Positions 16,853-36,149 of a stretch of 64,000 nt of DNA are shown piece after piece; within the stretch, counting starts at the first letter, position 1, and each line of letters begins with the position of its first letter. Origin of the DNA: Desulfobacteraceae bacterium. Its GTDB lineage: Bacteria; Desulfobacterota; Desulfobacteria; Desulfobacterales; Desulfosarcinaceae. The position numbers and the translations under genes are program-made. The notes under the pieces are model-generated. The model saw nothing but the letters and a program-made list of their open reading frames with translations, was not told the DNA's origin and ran no database searches. The stretch lies in assembly GCA_013003715.1 (NCBI GenBank), contig JABDIN010000073.1, forward strand, positions 1 through 64,000, in the 5' to 3' direction.

Positions 16853-19155
16853 CGCTATCATGGAAAAAACAAGCCCGAAACCGTATCGCCCGCCAGTTGA
16901 TACTGGCCATCGTTCTCTGCAGTTCCCTGGTGACAATTATTCTCACCGCAATCCAACTCTATCTGGATTACAAAAATGATCTGTCCCTTGTCCGGGAAAA
17001 AATCAGCTCAATCCAAATCACCGCAATGCCAACCCTGAGTCAGAGCGTCTGGGTACTGGATAACAACCTGATCGGCATACAGCTCAAAGGGCTTTTGGCC
17101 CAACGGGATATGGAACACCTGTCCATCCGCACCCCGGAAGGGAAGCTGTGGGAGGCCGGCAGCGTCAGCTCCAAGCAAACAGTGGTGCAGGATCTGCCCA
17201 TTCAATACGATTTCAACGGCCAAAACCTCCGGATCGGCACCTTGAAAATCATAGTCGGCCTCGACGGGATATACGACCGGTTGCTGAAAAAAGCCATCGT
17301 CATCCTGCTGAGTAATGCCATTAAAACCTTTATTGTGGCTTTTTTTGCACTTGCGGTATTTCAACACCTGGTCACCCGGCATTTAAACTCCCTGGCTGCA
17401 TACACCCTGGACATCAGCCTGGAACAGCGTAAACCGCCGCTGCAACTGGATCGGTCCTTAAGCCGCACTGCTGTTCCCGACGAACTCGACACGGTGGTTG
17501 CCGCCATCAATGCCATGAAAGAGAGACTTGACGCTGATCTGGCGGCACGCAAAAAGGTTGAACGTGTTCTGGTGGAAAGCGAGAAAAAATACCGCCGGCT
17601 CGTCGAGTCGACCCGTGTTGTCCCCTGGGAGCTTGATTTGGCCTCCGGGGAATTCACCTATTTCGGACCCCAGGCGGAAGAAATATTCGGATACCCGCTT
17701 GAAAGCTGGCAAAATCTGGAAGACTGGGCTGGCCGCATCCACCCGGAGGATCGTGAAAAAGCCGTTGAATACTGCCAGACATCGACCGCGCGTGGTGAAG
17801 ACCATCAATTCGTATACCGTGCGCTACATGCCGATGGCAGCGAATTGTGGATACAGGATATCGTCTCCGTCATTTCCGGACCGAAAGGACCGGGGCGCCT
17901 GGTGGGTTTTCTCCATGACATTACGGATCTGAAGCGTGCCGAAAAAGAGAAGGAGGAGTTGCAGACACAATTACGCCAGACCTATAAAATGGAAGCCATC
18001 GGTACCCTCGCCGGGGGGATCGCCCATGATTTCAACAATATTCTGGCGGTGATCCTGGGATTTGCCGACATGGCGAAGGATGATCTGCCGGAGGACAGTC
18101 AGGCAAGAGACCAGTTGGAGGAAATCCTTATCGCCGCAGAACGGGCCAAGGAACTGGTCAAGCAGATTCTGGCCTTCAGCCGCAAGGAAACCCAGGGTCG
18201 CCGGCCGGTGGATTTTAATAACATGGTGGTAGAGGCACTCACCCTTCTGCGCGCATCAATCCCCACCACCATTAAAATAGAACAGAATATCAAACCGGAT
18301 TGCGGCAGTATTTTGGCGGACCCGACCCAGATTCACCAGGTGCTCCTCAATTTGTGCATGAATGCGGCCCAGGCCATGGATGAGGCCGGCGGCGTCCTGA
18401 AGGTCGGGCTGAGGAATGTGGAAATATCATCGGAGAGTCTTGATCAGGTGCCCGATCTCAAGCCCGGTCCCCATGTGCGGCTCACTGTTCAGGATAATGG
18501 CTCCGGTATCGACCCGAGCCATATCGACCGCATTTTTGATCCGTACTACACCACCAAGGAGGTTGGAAAAGGCTCCGGCATGGGACTGGCCGTGGTAGGC
18601 GGTATCATAAAAAGCCATGACGGTATGATTACGGTGGACAGCCAGGTGGGTGAAGGCACGACCATTCAGGTGTTTTTTCCAATGGTCGGAGAAAAGCCTG
18701 AGGAGAAGGCCAAGCCAATTCAAAAATTACCCGGCGGAGATGAAAAAATCCTGGTGGTGGATGATGAGCGGGTAATCGCCGAGTTAACCCGAAAACGAAT
18801 TGAACTTCTGGGGTATGAGGTCACCGCAAAAACCTCCAGCACCGAGGCCCTTTCCCTGTTCCGCTCACAACCGGCATCGTTTGACCTGGTGATAACCGAT
18901 CAGACGATGCCGGAAATGACCGGAGAGCGGCTGGTAGCGGAGATGCGGGATATTCGTCCGGGCATACCGATCATCATGTGTACCGGTTACAGCTCGAAAA
19001 TAGATGCCGGAAAGGCCCGGGCCATTGGCATCAACGCCTTTATCATGAAACCGGTGGCGTCGGAAGAGCTATCCCTCATCATCAGAGAGGTCCTCGATTC
19101 GGGGCAGCCCGATCTTACACCTCCGACAGGGACAGGTCCAGCACCTCGATCATGA
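16849..19155 (+). CDS. Membrane hybrid histidine kinase (sensor, PAS, HisKA, HATPase, receiver)
   Basis: 768 residues. One membrane helix near 15-38 and one near 147-172 frame a periplasmic sensor region of about 110 residues. A PAS domain follows at about 245-365. The HisKA box [11 protein letters not shown] holds His393. The ATPase domain shows [14 protein letters not shown] and [12 protein letters not shown]. The C-terminal receiver has Asp684 (ITDQTMPEM) and a conserved KPV. The receiver may feed phosphate back or on to a separate partner. Its gene overlaps the mini binding protein gene upstream. Its last 41 bases overlap the 3' end of the convergent aminotransferase gene. Confidence 0.9.
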
Positions 19156-20464
19156 AATCAATATCCGCCCGGGTGATGCACATGGGTGGTTTGATGCGTA
19201 AGACATTGCCGAAGAATCCGCCCTTGCCGATGAGCAGACCCAGATCCTTGGCCCGTTCGAAAACCTGGGCGCAGGCTTGGGTCGCCGGTGTTTTGGCCTT
19301 GCGATCCGTCACCAGTTCAATGCCGGTCATGAGTCCCTTGCCCCGGATTTCTCCGATCACTTCATGCTTGTCCATGAGCATCTGAAAGCCGGTCATGAGA
19401 TATTGGCCCATCTCTTTACAGCGATCCTGGAGATTCTCTTTATCGATGACCTCCAGCACGGCTTTGCCCATGGCGCAGGAAACCGGATTGCCGCCAAAGG
19501 TGTTGAAATGGATCCGTTGGGTCAGGGATTCGGCAATTTTCGGTGTGGTCACCACCGCGGCCAGGGGGGCGCCGTTTCCGATGCCCTTGGCCATGGTCAC
19601 GATATCCGGAATCACACCCTGGGTTTCAAAGCCCCAGAAGGCGTCGCCGGTGCGGCCGAATCCGGTCTGCACTTCGTCCGCGATACACACCCCGCCGGCA
19701 GCCCGTACATGTTCATAGGCATGTTTCAGAAATCCGTCGGGATATACCACCGTGCCCCCCACGCCTTGAATGGATTCAGCAAAAAAACCGGCCACCCGGC
19801 CCGGTGTGGCGTATTGAATCAGGTCCTGGACATCTGCGGCATAGTGTTTCCCTGCATCCGGATCGTCCATTCCCCACGGCCCGCGGTATGGATCCGGCAT
19901 TTTGCTGTGATGAATCCCGAAATTGTGGGGGTAATTGAATTTCCACGTGCTGTGAGCGGTGAGGCCCATACTCGACGGACTACCGCCGTGGTAGGCGTTG
20001 CGAAGGGCAAGGACGTCGTAGTTGCCGGTGGAAAGCCGGGCCATCAGCATGGCCAGATCGTTGGCCTCCGAGCCGGAATTGACAAAATAGCAGACGCTGA
20101 GATCTCCGGGCATTTTCTCCGCCATGGCCTTTGCATATTCCGCGATGACCGGGTGATAGTAGATGGTGGTGGTATGCTGGAGGGTCTCCATCTGTTCCCG
20201 CACTTTTTCATTCACATACGGATGGCAGTGACCCACGCTGACGGTGACGATACCCCCGAATCCATCCAGATACCGCCGACCGGTGTCGTCGTATAGGTAT
20301 TGCATGGAGCCTTCCACGATCATGACCGGTTTCTGATAATAGGTCACCAGGGCAGGTGACAGGTAGGTGCTGCGCATCTCCCTGACCGCTTCGAACGAAG
20401 GTCCCTGGTATGGTTTTGGCCGATGATCATACGGCGGAAGCTGGGGTGCTGATGATGTATTCAT
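19115..20464 (-). CDS. Class III PLP aminotransferase, alanine-glyoxylate (AGXT2)-like
   Basis: 449-residue PLP aminotransferase. The N-terminal pattern ([29 protein letters not shown]), [15 protein letters not shown], the PLP contact [14 protein letters not shown] and Schiff-base Lys293 (TMAKGIGNG) match the AGXT2-like branch. Members use glyoxylate or pyruvate as acceptor with alanine, beta-aminoisobutyrate or related donors. AAGGAGA precedes the ATG. The divergent Lrp-type regulator gene 265 bases away probably controls it. The tail-to-tail overlap with the kinase gene is unusual but both reading frames are well supported. Confidence 0.88.
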
Positions 20465-32605: not shown

Positions 32606-33349
32606 CTATGGAGACATTAACTGCTGGAGGAAACAGCCCCCCCCGCCGCCGCCACCACCACTGCTGCCGCTGCCGCTGCTGACGCTTCCACTGTCGCCAC
32701 TTTCCGAACTCCAGGAACCACTTATGCCGGAATCGGAAACCAGGCCGTAAACGACAAAATCATCGCCATACCCATCCACACCCACGACGATCAATCGACC
32801 ATCGGGATGCACTCCCCCCTCAAATGGATACGCCTCCCCATCCACGGTCATGTCGCCCGTCACATAGCCATTGGAGGCAATCGTCATCGACCATGTGCCG
32901 GATTCATCTCCGCTGAAGCTGCCGGAGTAGTCGCCGGCCTGGCTGACCGAGGTGACGGCCTGGCCGGTGAATGTGCCGGATTCGTAATAATTTGCCCAGG
33001 TACCGGAAACCGAACCATCCGATGAGTCAACATCGGCACTGACATCTGAATCGTTCATAACGGAAGTGCTCGTGTATGTACCGGTGGTGCCGTATTCCGT
33101 TGAAAAATAAAGGTAACCACCGTCGCCTGTACTATGACCAGTGGAGTAAGATAAGAAGAGGCTCTCCGAAGAAGATGAGGAGATAACGGCCACCCAGACC
33201 CCTGAATCCTCTCCGGTGAATGTCCCGGCATAGGTGCCGTAGTAGTCCGATGGGGCACACCAGGCAGACGGTGCAATACTGATACAGAAGGCCGCGAAAA
33301 CAAAGAGGACGAGAACCCTTGGAAACAGAACATGCTTGATACGAGTCAT
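32606..33349 (-). CDS. Secreted Gly/Ser-rich protein with poly-Gly-Cys-Phe tail
   Basis: 247 residues. A signal peptide (hydrophobic core VLVLFVFAAFCISIA, cut after AWCA) precedes two related beta-rich units: GTYAGTFTGEDSGVWVAVIS and, later, GDYSGSFSGDESGTWSMTIA. The end is a Ser/Gly linker, nine Gly and then CFLQQLMSP. A poly-Gly run ending in Cys-Phe is a frequent C-terminus of exported Deltaproteobacterial proteins and may be a processing or anchoring signal; this is inference. The ATG at 33349 has GAAAGGA six bases upstream; further ATGs lie close before it. Confidence 0.7.
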   Translation of the reverse strand: MTRIKHVLFPRVLVLFVFAAFCISIAPSAWCAPSDYYGTYAGTFTGEDSGVWVAVISSSSSESLFLSYSTGHSTGDGGYLYFSTEYGTTGTYTSTSVMNDSDVSADVDSSDGSVSGTWANYYESGTFTGQAVTSVSQAGDYSGSFSGDESGTWSMTIASNGYVTGDMTVDGEAYPFEGGVHPDGRLIVVGVDGYGDDFVVYGLVSDSGISGSWSSESGDSGSVSSGSGSSGGGGGGGGCFLQQLMSP

Positions 33350-33648
33350 TTTCATTCCTTTCAATTAGAGTTTCAATGCAAGTCGATTGCCGGATACCGA
33401 GAGACGGTCCGTTCACCTGTTTAAAAAGAGCAACAGGGCTATTGCCTGTATTTATTCAGCATAGCTGAATATAAATTGTTATCATAGTGGTTTGTGGTGT
33501 TGCATACTCGTGATATATCGTGAAAAGAGCTATCAAAAGCATGGAGGCTTGTCAATACGCTCAGCACGTTGTTGGAGAGTGACCTCATTAGGATTTGGCA
33601 TCGGATACTTTAAAATATTGACCGTGCGTTGCTATAAGGTTTGGTTAT

Positions 33649-33834: not shown

Positions 33835-34362
33835 TCAGGAAGGCTCTCCCCTTTCAATATTCTGCCGGCCGATTCCCGTGTAGACCGATTTGCAGATGCC
33901 GGAGACGCCGCCCTTGATCCCTTCCGGATTTTTAAACCCTTCCGAGTTCTGTAAACTTTCAAGATAGTGGGCAGCCGTTCCCAACGAATTAAAGGCGATG
34001 TCAACATGACGATCCGGCTCGATGGAAAACAGCCATCCCCTGCCATAGGGGTCGGCGGTTATCTCTCCCGGGTTCTCTTTGACCTCAGGGTTGAGACGAA
34101 TCTTTCCCACAATTGGGGCGTCAATGTAGATGATTTTACCGGTGATGGCGAACACGACGGATTCGCCGGCATCAACTGTGCTGCCGTCACCAACCAGCCA
34201 CTCCAGGTCCTTGAGGCCAGCGGAAAGCACCAGGGCCGGTTGGCTGATGCCGAAGACGACGGTGTTGTCTTCTCTCCGGGCCCAGAGGCCTTGTTTCAGA
34301 TCATAGTTCAGTGCTTCCGGTATGTCCACCTGCTGACCCAGGAACTTTTCGATGACGGCCAT
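33835..34362 (-). CDS. GcvH-like lipoyl-domain protein
   Basis: 175 residues; the first 125 follow glycine-cleavage H protein: IPEALNYDLKQGLWAR, VVFGISQPAL, DAGESVVFAITGKIIYIDAP and DPYGRGWLFSI. Counting from the conserved Gly-Glu, the lipoyl Lys corresponds to Lys76, in ITGK instead of the usual ESVK, and the hairpin after it is one residue shorter. Lipoylation is therefore plausible but unproven. No other glycine-cleavage gene is nearby. About 45 extra residues follow the H domain. It lies 38 bases downstream of the rhodanese-DsbD gene and may take part in the same thiol or lipoamide chemistry. GGAGAG precedes the ATG. Confidence 0.72.
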   Translation of the reverse strand: MAVIEKFLGQQVDIPEALNYDLKQGLWARREDNTVVFGISQPALVLSAGLKDLEWLVGDGSTVDAGESVVFAITGKIIYIDAPIVGKIRLNPEVKENPGEITADPYGRGWLFSIEPDRHVDIAFNSLGTAAHYLESLQNSEGFKNPEGIKGGVSGICKSVYTGIGRQNIERGEPS

Positions 34363-34400
34363 ATTTCTCTCCATTGTTTTCGATGATACAGTTCATCTGC

Positions 34401-36149
34401 TCAATTGTCCATTTTTCCACGCACCCTAAGCCGGGCGATGTTGCTCAATACCTTTTCCGGGCGTTCATAATCGACTATACGTAAATGCTTACGTTCCTGC
34501 CCGTTCCCATCGATGAAGATCACCGTGGGGACGCCTTTGACATCATATTCGGTGAGCAAGGTTTCTTGTCCCTTGACGCCTGTCCGGGTGAGATCGATTT
34601 TTATCATCACCACCTCGCCTTGTGACAATTTAACGATGGCCGGGTCGTGGAAGGTGATCTCTTCCAGTTTTCTGCAGGGGGCACACCAATCGGCATGAAA
34701 ATCCATGACCACTGGCCTGCCCTGGGAGGCGGCATTTTCCAGGAGCTCATCCGAATATGCCTGCCAGCGGACACCGGGACCTTTCAGAACAAGGGCCGAT
34801 GCGGTCGCCACGGCGAATATCAAACATCCCAGGGCGATTCCCGTCTTAATCCAGGCAAACATTTCAGATGGCCGGGTCCGGTCCACCCAGCCCAGGTGCA
34901 GTCCTGCCGCCACGGCGACCACGGCCATGGCAATCCTGCCGCCGCCATGGGGCAGTACCGGGCCCAAGAAATAGGCGGCCATACCCATCAATACCCACCC
35001 CATTAACTTACGGATCCACAACATCCATTCTCCGGATTGGGGCAGCCGGTCGAGATGACCGGAGAAGATGGCCAGGAAGAACAGGGGCAGTCCCAGTCCG
35101 AGGCTCAATGTGAAAAAAACCGAAAAACCGGTCAGGGGATCGCCGGTCCCGGCCACCCAGGTGAGCAGACCCAGGACAAAGGGGCCGATGCAGGGGGCGG
35201 CGATGATGCCAAGGGTCAAGCCCATGAAAACAGATCCGGTGAAACCGGCATGGGATTTGGATGCCATCCGGATCAGCCCAAAGGGCATTCTCAATTCCCA
35301 GAGGCCGAACAGGCTGGTGCCGAGGGCCACAAGCACTCCAGCGATGCCGACCAGGACCCATGGATGCTGAAGAAGCGCTCCCATGATCCCGCCGGTAAGC
35401 GCCGCCATCACTCCGAGGATGGAATTGGTGATGGCCAGACCACCGATGTAGCAGGCGCCGTGCACGGCGATCCGCGCTCTGGCCTGTCCGGTGCGGCCGC
35501 CGAAATAGGTGACCGTGATGGGGATCAGCGGATAGACGCAAGGGGTGAGATTCAATGCCATGCCGCCGAAAAAAGCAGTGATGAGCGTGATGAGGAAACC
35601 GGTATTCCGGAAGCCATCGGGTTTTTCCTCTGTTGCAGCAACAACGGGTTCCGCGAAGGCGGTGGCCACCGGATACTTATTGGCGTGCCACGTCGGAAAG
35701 CCCAGGGGGTCACGATATACGTTCTTGTATCCGAGCCGGACAGCTACCCGAGCTGCCGAGTCACTGCGGACTCATGCCAGGCCGGCTCAGTAAAAAAAGA
35801 TGGACCGGTCCTTATCCGGACCCAGGAGTTGTTTAAGTTTTCTGCCGCTGGTCCACCGTGCCGTCCAGGTGGGTTCCATGGGAAAGTTGACGGCACCCCG
35901 TATGTGCCCGCTTCGATACTCCCATCCCTGACGGGTATCGACGATGAGGATGTCCCGGGGTGTGGTTTTATAGAGTTGCCATAGCGCTTCGGAACTGATC
36001 AGTTGATATCCGCCGTTTCTGGCTTCCAGGGCAACATTTTCTGGTGAGGACTGCCGGGGGAGTCCGGTTTGGTGATGAAACCACAGGATACCGATGGTCA
36101 TCACCAGCATAATGACGGGAAAAATGGCGGTTCGAAGTATATTTTTCAT
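34401..36149 (-). CDS. Candidate selenoprotein: rhodanese domain fused to DsbD-type thiol transporter and thioredoxin, two in-frame UGA codons
   Basis: One frame of 582 codons runs from the ATG at 36149 to 34401, broken only by TGA at codons 121 and 126. It contains an N-terminal membrane anchor (about 5-24), a rhodanese domain (about 45-155: ILIVDTRQGWEYRSGHIRGA before the TGAs; VRSDSAARVAVRLGYKNVYR after), a multi-helix DsbD beta domain with Cys204 (LTPCVYP) and Cys320 (AAPCIGP), and a thioredoxin domain with Cys489/Cys492 (DWCAPCRK). The stretch FFY-TGA-AGLA-TGA-VRSDSAA matches the family pattern YC-x4-C-x2-S, so both TGAs replace Cys. Selenocysteine insertion is inferred. Such a protein could move electrons across the membrane to a sulfur-binding periplasmic rhodanese. 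Conventional calls would split it at 35669/35787. Confidence 0.82.
35737..35773 (-). promoter_or_regulatory. Two candidate bacterial SECIS hairpins after the UGA codons
   Basis: After the first UGA (35787-35789), GAGTC and GACTC pair around loop CGCAGT, with the loop 19-24 bases downstream. After the second UGA (35772-35774), CGGCAGCT and AGCTG-U-CCG pair with one bulged U around loop CGGGT, 22-26 bases downstream. Bacterial SECIS elements sit at this distance and use a short stem, a bulge and G residues in the loop. The two hairpins share one base, so they would form in turn as the ribosome advances. Confidence 0.6.

Follow-up and report, generated by a model that had tools for sequence, protein, structure and literature searches.

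The locus described here raises two questions: whether a gene interrupted by two in-frame UGA codons encodes a selenoprotein, and which chemistry such a protein would carry out. It lies in a 64,000 nt stretch of a Desulfobacteraceae genome (contig JABDIN010000073.1), referred to below as the window. A first-pass annotation made from the sequence alone had read the gene as a rhodanese-DsbD-thioredoxin fusion with two selenocysteine (Sec) residues. The minus-strand frame running from 36149 to 34401 is interrupted only by TGA at codons 121 and 126, and checking of the translation returned the frame, the coordinates and both TGA positions as that annotation had given them. Under translation table 11, the gene is broken into an ORF of 120 codons and another of 422 codons. 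The terminal codon (34401-34403) is also TGA and is taken to be a real stop, because homologues end at about the same point.

Domain organization

The predicted anatomy of the protein is a membrane anchor, a rhodanese domain carrying a U-x4-U motif, the electron-relay membrane domain of DsbD and a thioredoxin domain with a CxxC pair (Table 1). Pfam recovers the domain order proposed in the annotation, and the rhodanese domain scores 47.3 bits against the PF00581 gathering cut-off of 22.2. The N-terminal anchor would place the rhodanese on the periplasmic side of the membrane, a topology based on homology to DsbD and to rhodaneses. The best solved matches to the thioredoxin domain by sequence are the C-terminal domains of DsbD proteins, such as 4ip1.

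The loop that holds the two Sec residues reads FFY-U-AGLA-U-VRSDSAARVAV. In alignments, U121 occupies the column of the loop catalytic Cys of the solved rhodaneses 6mxv, 3d1p and 2hhg, and U126 falls within a two-residue loop insertion relative to these structures. An AlphaFold2 model of moderate quality (pLDDT 77, pTM 0.58), which gives no domain contacts, places the pair in the loop between the strand 116-120 and the helix 128-138.

Table 1. Features of the tsoB locus, with positions in the window except where a contig is named
Feature	Position	Strand	Basis
tsoB, 582-codon selenoprotein gene (rhodanese - DsbD_TM - thioredoxin)	34401..36149	-	translation with TGA=U; NF045694; Pfam
Predicted N-terminal membrane anchor or signal, residues 8-25	36075..36128	-	hydrophobic stretch; AlphaFold2 helix 2-27
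Rhodanese domain, residues 56-156	35682..35984	-	PF00581
UGA1, codon 121, Sec at rhodanese catalytic cysteine position	35787..35789	-	alignments with 6mxv, 3d1p, 2hhg
UGA2, codon 126, Sec five residues past U121	35772..35774	-	alignments; Cys here in L056 and L140
Putative SECIS hairpin 1 for UGA1, core GAGUC-CGCAGU-GACUC	35755..35777	-	frozen codons; stability
Putative SECIS hairpin 2 for UGA2, GGCAGCU-CGGGU-AGCUGUC	35739..35757	-	covariation; stability
DsbD transmembrane (beta) domain, residues 188-399, with C204 and C320	34953..35588	-	PF02683, 141 bits
C-terminal thioredoxin domain, DsbD gamma-like, about residues 461-565, WCAPC (C489/C492)	34455..34769	-	PF13899/PF13098
Gene for GcvH-related protein, next gene, 26 nt past tsoB	33835..34374	-	NF045810 GcvH_rel_desulf, 248 bits (cut-off 150)
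selD with its own in-frame TGA	18649-19569 (contig C8 of the window's genome, G000)		

Conservation of the UGA pair

A scan of genome contigs recovered 54 related loci at best-segment identities of 45-59%; almost all of them are in Desulfobacterota-type genomes. Desulfacinum infernum DSM 9756 (L057) is one cultivated relative that has the gene. Both loop codons are TGA in 51 of the 52 loci that cover the loop, and TGC/TGT stands in their place in the remaining one (L056). When distinct sequences are counted, the two TGAs are found together in 62/63. With U treated as C, the residues invariant across 29 aligned proteins are the two loop positions, C204, C320 and the thioredoxin CxxC pair. The annotation had considered chance nonsense changes at two Cys codons unlikely, and had looked to relatives with U-x4-U or C-x4-C for support. 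The former arrangement is seen in dozens of Desulfobacterota-type genomes, the latter at both positions in L056, and the distribution of the codons speaks against chance. Homology spans both UGAs, whereas homologues starting only at 35669 had been named as evidence to the contrary. On comparative grounds, both UGAs are conserved Sec codons.

The Cys/Cys form in L056 is a full TsoB paralogue (L056/L138:2493-4262; found likewise on G289:C128) that shares its genome with a Sec form, a UGA/UGA copy located on a different contig. The window's own genome encodes a separate single-domain rhodanese (L140), the loop of which, YCGFVKCTRS, aligns without gaps at both Sec positions. This secreted-looking Cys-x4-Cys rhodanese (L140:1722-2880, G000 contig C65) adjoins a MauE-like membrane protein. 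A free-standing double-Sec rhodanese of 165 aa with the loop YUAGLAUVRSDSAA and without the DsbD part was also found (L141:1935-2432, G202 contig C53). It scores 206 bits to the TsoB model, and its upstream neighbour resembles, by eye, an acyl-CoA dehydratase activase.

Family identity and related proteins

The protein matches the NCBIfam profile NF045694, named “rhodanese/DsbD fusion-like selenoprotein TsoB”, with a score of 922 bits (cut-off 805) and with residues 8-574 lying on profile positions 3-571 of 572. The fusion, presented in the annotation as not known to have been characterised, had therefore already been named. Within the phylum, the NF045694 cut-off is passed in 14/297 sampled genomes. 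The TsoB entry of a 2026 review (PMC13188914) gives a UxxxxU motif with two Sec residues and credits Haft and Tolstoy 2025 (mSystems 10:e0141724); there, Tso stands for “three selenoprotein operon”, tsoA-tsoB-tsoC. By its sequence, the gene is a further member of this recently named family, catalogued in 2025. A literature search, in which Haft and Tolstoy 2025 was represented through PMC13188914 only, found no reports on TsoB biochemistry; the family is named, yet no assigned chemistry was found in that search. The additions made here are the overlapping SECIS pair, described below, and a tsoB setting without tsoA and tsoC and with a GcvH-related neighbour.

Like other TsoB proteins, the window protein has a full-length match above the cut-off, the identical domain order and UxxxxU with two Sec residues, and it shares 50-59% identity with aligned family members. 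It differs in the absence of detected TsoA and TsoC from its genome and in the GcvH-related gene that follows tsoB. The membrane and C-terminal thioredoxin domains are shared with DsbD (NF001419/PRK00293; 239 bits over residues 181-573). However, this score is below the DsbD cut-off of 330 bits, which leaves the protein outside DsbD proper, and a double-Sec rhodanese replaces the N-terminal alpha domain. Sec within a rhodanese domain is also found in the rhodanese-like selenoproteins, of which PMC13188914 describes forms 1-4 (including NF041203). These contain one Sec (UxxS, UxxG or CxU) and belong to rhodanese models, in contrast to the two Sec residues and the DsbD fusion of the window protein.

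Proposed mechanism

In DsbD, electrons pass from cytoplasmic thioredoxin to a pair in the membrane and on to the thioredoxin domain. TsoB is probably a membrane protein with two Sec residues in which a relay of this type reduces the rhodanese Sec pair, with release of sulfane sulfur. Cytoplasmic thioredoxin would reduce the membrane pair C204/C320, as in DsbD, and this pair would in turn reduce the periplasmic thioredoxin domain at C489/C492. The latter would keep U121/U126 reduced in the rhodanese, which occupies the place of the N-terminal alpha domain of DsbD. Sulfane sulfur from thiosulfate, polysulfide or a protein persulfide would be bound by U121. U126 would then resolve the adduct on U121, so that sulfide is released and the Sec pair is left oxidised, to be re-reduced by the relay. 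Reductive release of this kind is suggested by the location of two Sec residues in the loop of a sulfurtransferase. The direction of electrons, the substrate and the topology are taken from DsbD and rhodanese homology. The role proposed in the annotation, in which the Sec pair receives electrons from the DsbD and thioredoxin domains to reduce or move sulfane sulfur, is plausibly that of this double selenoprotein. That the alpha domain is replaced by a double-Sec rhodanese gives rise to the idea that sulfur-metabolising Desulfobacterota may handle sulfane sulfur reductively on the outer side of the membrane, with power supplied by the cytoplasm.

The same selenoprotein could perform a different chemistry: the Sec pair would act as a disulfide or peroxide reductase, or as a hub that supplies periplasmic partners with reductant, and the fold of the rhodanese would be no more than a scaffold, with no sulfur transferred. 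Proteins of the DsbD family normally reduce disulfides, and a U-x4-U loop extended by two residues departs from the single Cys that is usual in sulfurtransferase loops. Against this, U121 falls exactly on the sulfur-carrying Cys of rhodaneses. The genome also contains dsrA (604 bits), which fits the expected dissimilatory sulfur-metabolising organism and means that sulfur chemistry is at hand. Such a reductase or hub is rated as rather unlikely.

Two overlapping SECIS-like hairpins

Downstream of each UGA, a putative hairpin is found within the coding sequence. Hairpin 1 contains UGA2 in its 5′ arm, has its apical loop 18 nt from UGA1 and reaches -9.3 kcal/mol in the window; across the family it takes the form GAGUC-CGNAGY-GACUC. 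Hairpin 2 covers codons +11 to +16 (numbered with UGA1 as 0), with 21 nt between UGA2 and an apical loop that is CGGGU or CGUGU in the family, and a stability of -8.8 to -9.4 kcal/mol. Two bases in the outer pairs of hairpin 1 are also needed for hairpin 2. The limits for bacterial SECIS elements given in PMC13188914 concern spacing, energy, loop size and a G among the first two loop nucleotides, and both window hairpins (loops CGCAGU and CGGGU) lie within them.

Folding of single sequences was unconvincing, with z-scores of -0.4 to -2.0, and synonymous sites were therefore tested across the 63 sequences. Asp+9 is encoded by GAC in 62/63, against about equal use of GAC and GAT elsewhere in the region. 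Ser+8 is always AGY and Ser+10 is TCN, mostly TCG, while Val+6 is GTC in 57 and Val+14 is GTG in 54. Among 1002 third-position pairs, the two with the best covariation are +11/+15 and +12/+14, and hairpin 2 has precisely these two as its synonymous pairs. The pair +12/+14 is C-G in 54 sequences, T-A in seven and mixed in none, and has been exchanged at least four times on the protein tree, on both sides each time. The mean family stability of both hairpins exceeds that of any of 200 synonymous re-draws. Support for hairpin 1 comes from frozen codons and stability, without covariation. Taken together, the synonymous sites provide strong evidence that two overlapping SECIS-like hairpins recode the two UGAs. 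A pair of this kind forms a compact natural test of the recoding of two closely spaced UGAs in one message. Tandem or overlapping SECIS elements in bacteria were not met as a phrase in a literature search, which is weak evidence of novelty.

Recoding might also be unequal, with one UGA decoded efficiently and the other mostly terminating, in which case the selenium supply would determine whether a short rhodanese fragment or the full protein is made. The location of UGA2 inside the hairpin 1 arm means that the two recoding events could interfere, and hairpin 2 lies 36 nt from UGA1, just within the allowed range, and might thus serve both UGAs. Such a switch is nonetheless improbable, given the joint conservation of both codons in 62/63 sequences and a properly spaced hairpin for each UGA.

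The Cys/Cys paralogue (L056/L138) has GAT at Asp+9, where Sec forms have GAC; it looks as if hairpin 1 had decayed after loss of the UGAs, in this one case only. In another locus (L058:5304-5400), an in-frame loss of SAARVAVKLGY directly after UGA2 removes hairpin 2, through either a deletion or an assembly fault.

Selenocysteine machinery of the genome

The annotation had suggested a search for selA, selB, selC and selD in the same genome. All of the corresponding components were detected: selA (601 bits), selB (380 bits) and selD (364 bits) are over their cut-offs, and the tRNA-Sec scores 71 bits against a gathering score of 47. The selD gene has one in-frame TGA of its own. A pseudogene or sequencing error, i.e. 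two nonsense changes that disrupt a rhodanese-DsbD gene, has the stops under table 11 as its sole support and was rejected as practically negligible, being refuted by the identical UGA pair in 51 loci from independent assemblies and by the RNA covariation beneath the UGAs. Use of UGA as an ordinary sense codon throughout the organism, for tryptophan or another residue, is equally negligible and was likewise rejected: nothing beyond the in-frame UGAs themselves was found in its favour, while tsoB ends with TGA where its homologues end, the UGA positions align with Cys and not Trp, and tRNA-Sec and SelB are present.

Gene neighbourhood

Neither TsoA nor TsoC was found by profile searches of the window's genome, which is 97% complete; as positive controls, the same models detected TsoA in 3/12 genomes and TsoC in 6/9. 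These searches also returned neither protein from the genomes of L017 and L052. Over the surveyed loci, some of which lie on contigs that end early, tsoA is upstream in 20/55 and tsoC downstream in 32/55, and many TsoB loci have one or both missing as neighbours. The examples of tsoA and tsoC that were read contain one in-frame UGA each and match the TsoA (LULAxC) and TsoC (NEPxGxxU) models. Several further neighbour clusters were set aside as apparently antisense reading frames of these two genes. The window gene thus falls outside the Tso operon, defined by tsoB beside tsoA and tsoC, with its membership of the TsoB protein family unaffected. The pathway may accordingly differ from that of the described operon.

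The GcvH-related gene adjoins tsoB in six other loci (L018, L019, L033, L035, L038 and L052), variably upstream or downstream. As about four separate parts of the tree show the association, it is probably functional. An invariant K80 of the GcvH-related protein is one residue off the lipoyl-lysine column in one alignment, in which a gap could join the two.

A wider reading of the locus is put forward tentatively, with somewhat less than even confidence. The overlapping hairpins may decode two Sec codons only 15 nt apart, one of them within the stem of hairpin 1, in which case SelB-dependent recoding would have to occur at one UGA and then directly at the other, while the translating ribosome unfolds the first signal and moves on to the second. 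In addition, a TsoB that lacks TsoA and TsoC and adjoins a GcvH-related protein may constitute a pathway branch of its own.

Further features were observed around these loci. On the minus strand of the window, 32606-33364 encodes a secreted-looking Ser/Gly-rich protein without a Pfam match, in which a poly-Gly stretch is followed by a GCFLQQL tail. Two tandem tsoC-like matches are located downstream of tsoB in L034, L039, L049, L053, L055, L058 and L062. In L025, L026, L028, L039, L055, L062 and L065, the tso genes are followed by one for a VTT-domain (DedA-like) membrane protein.
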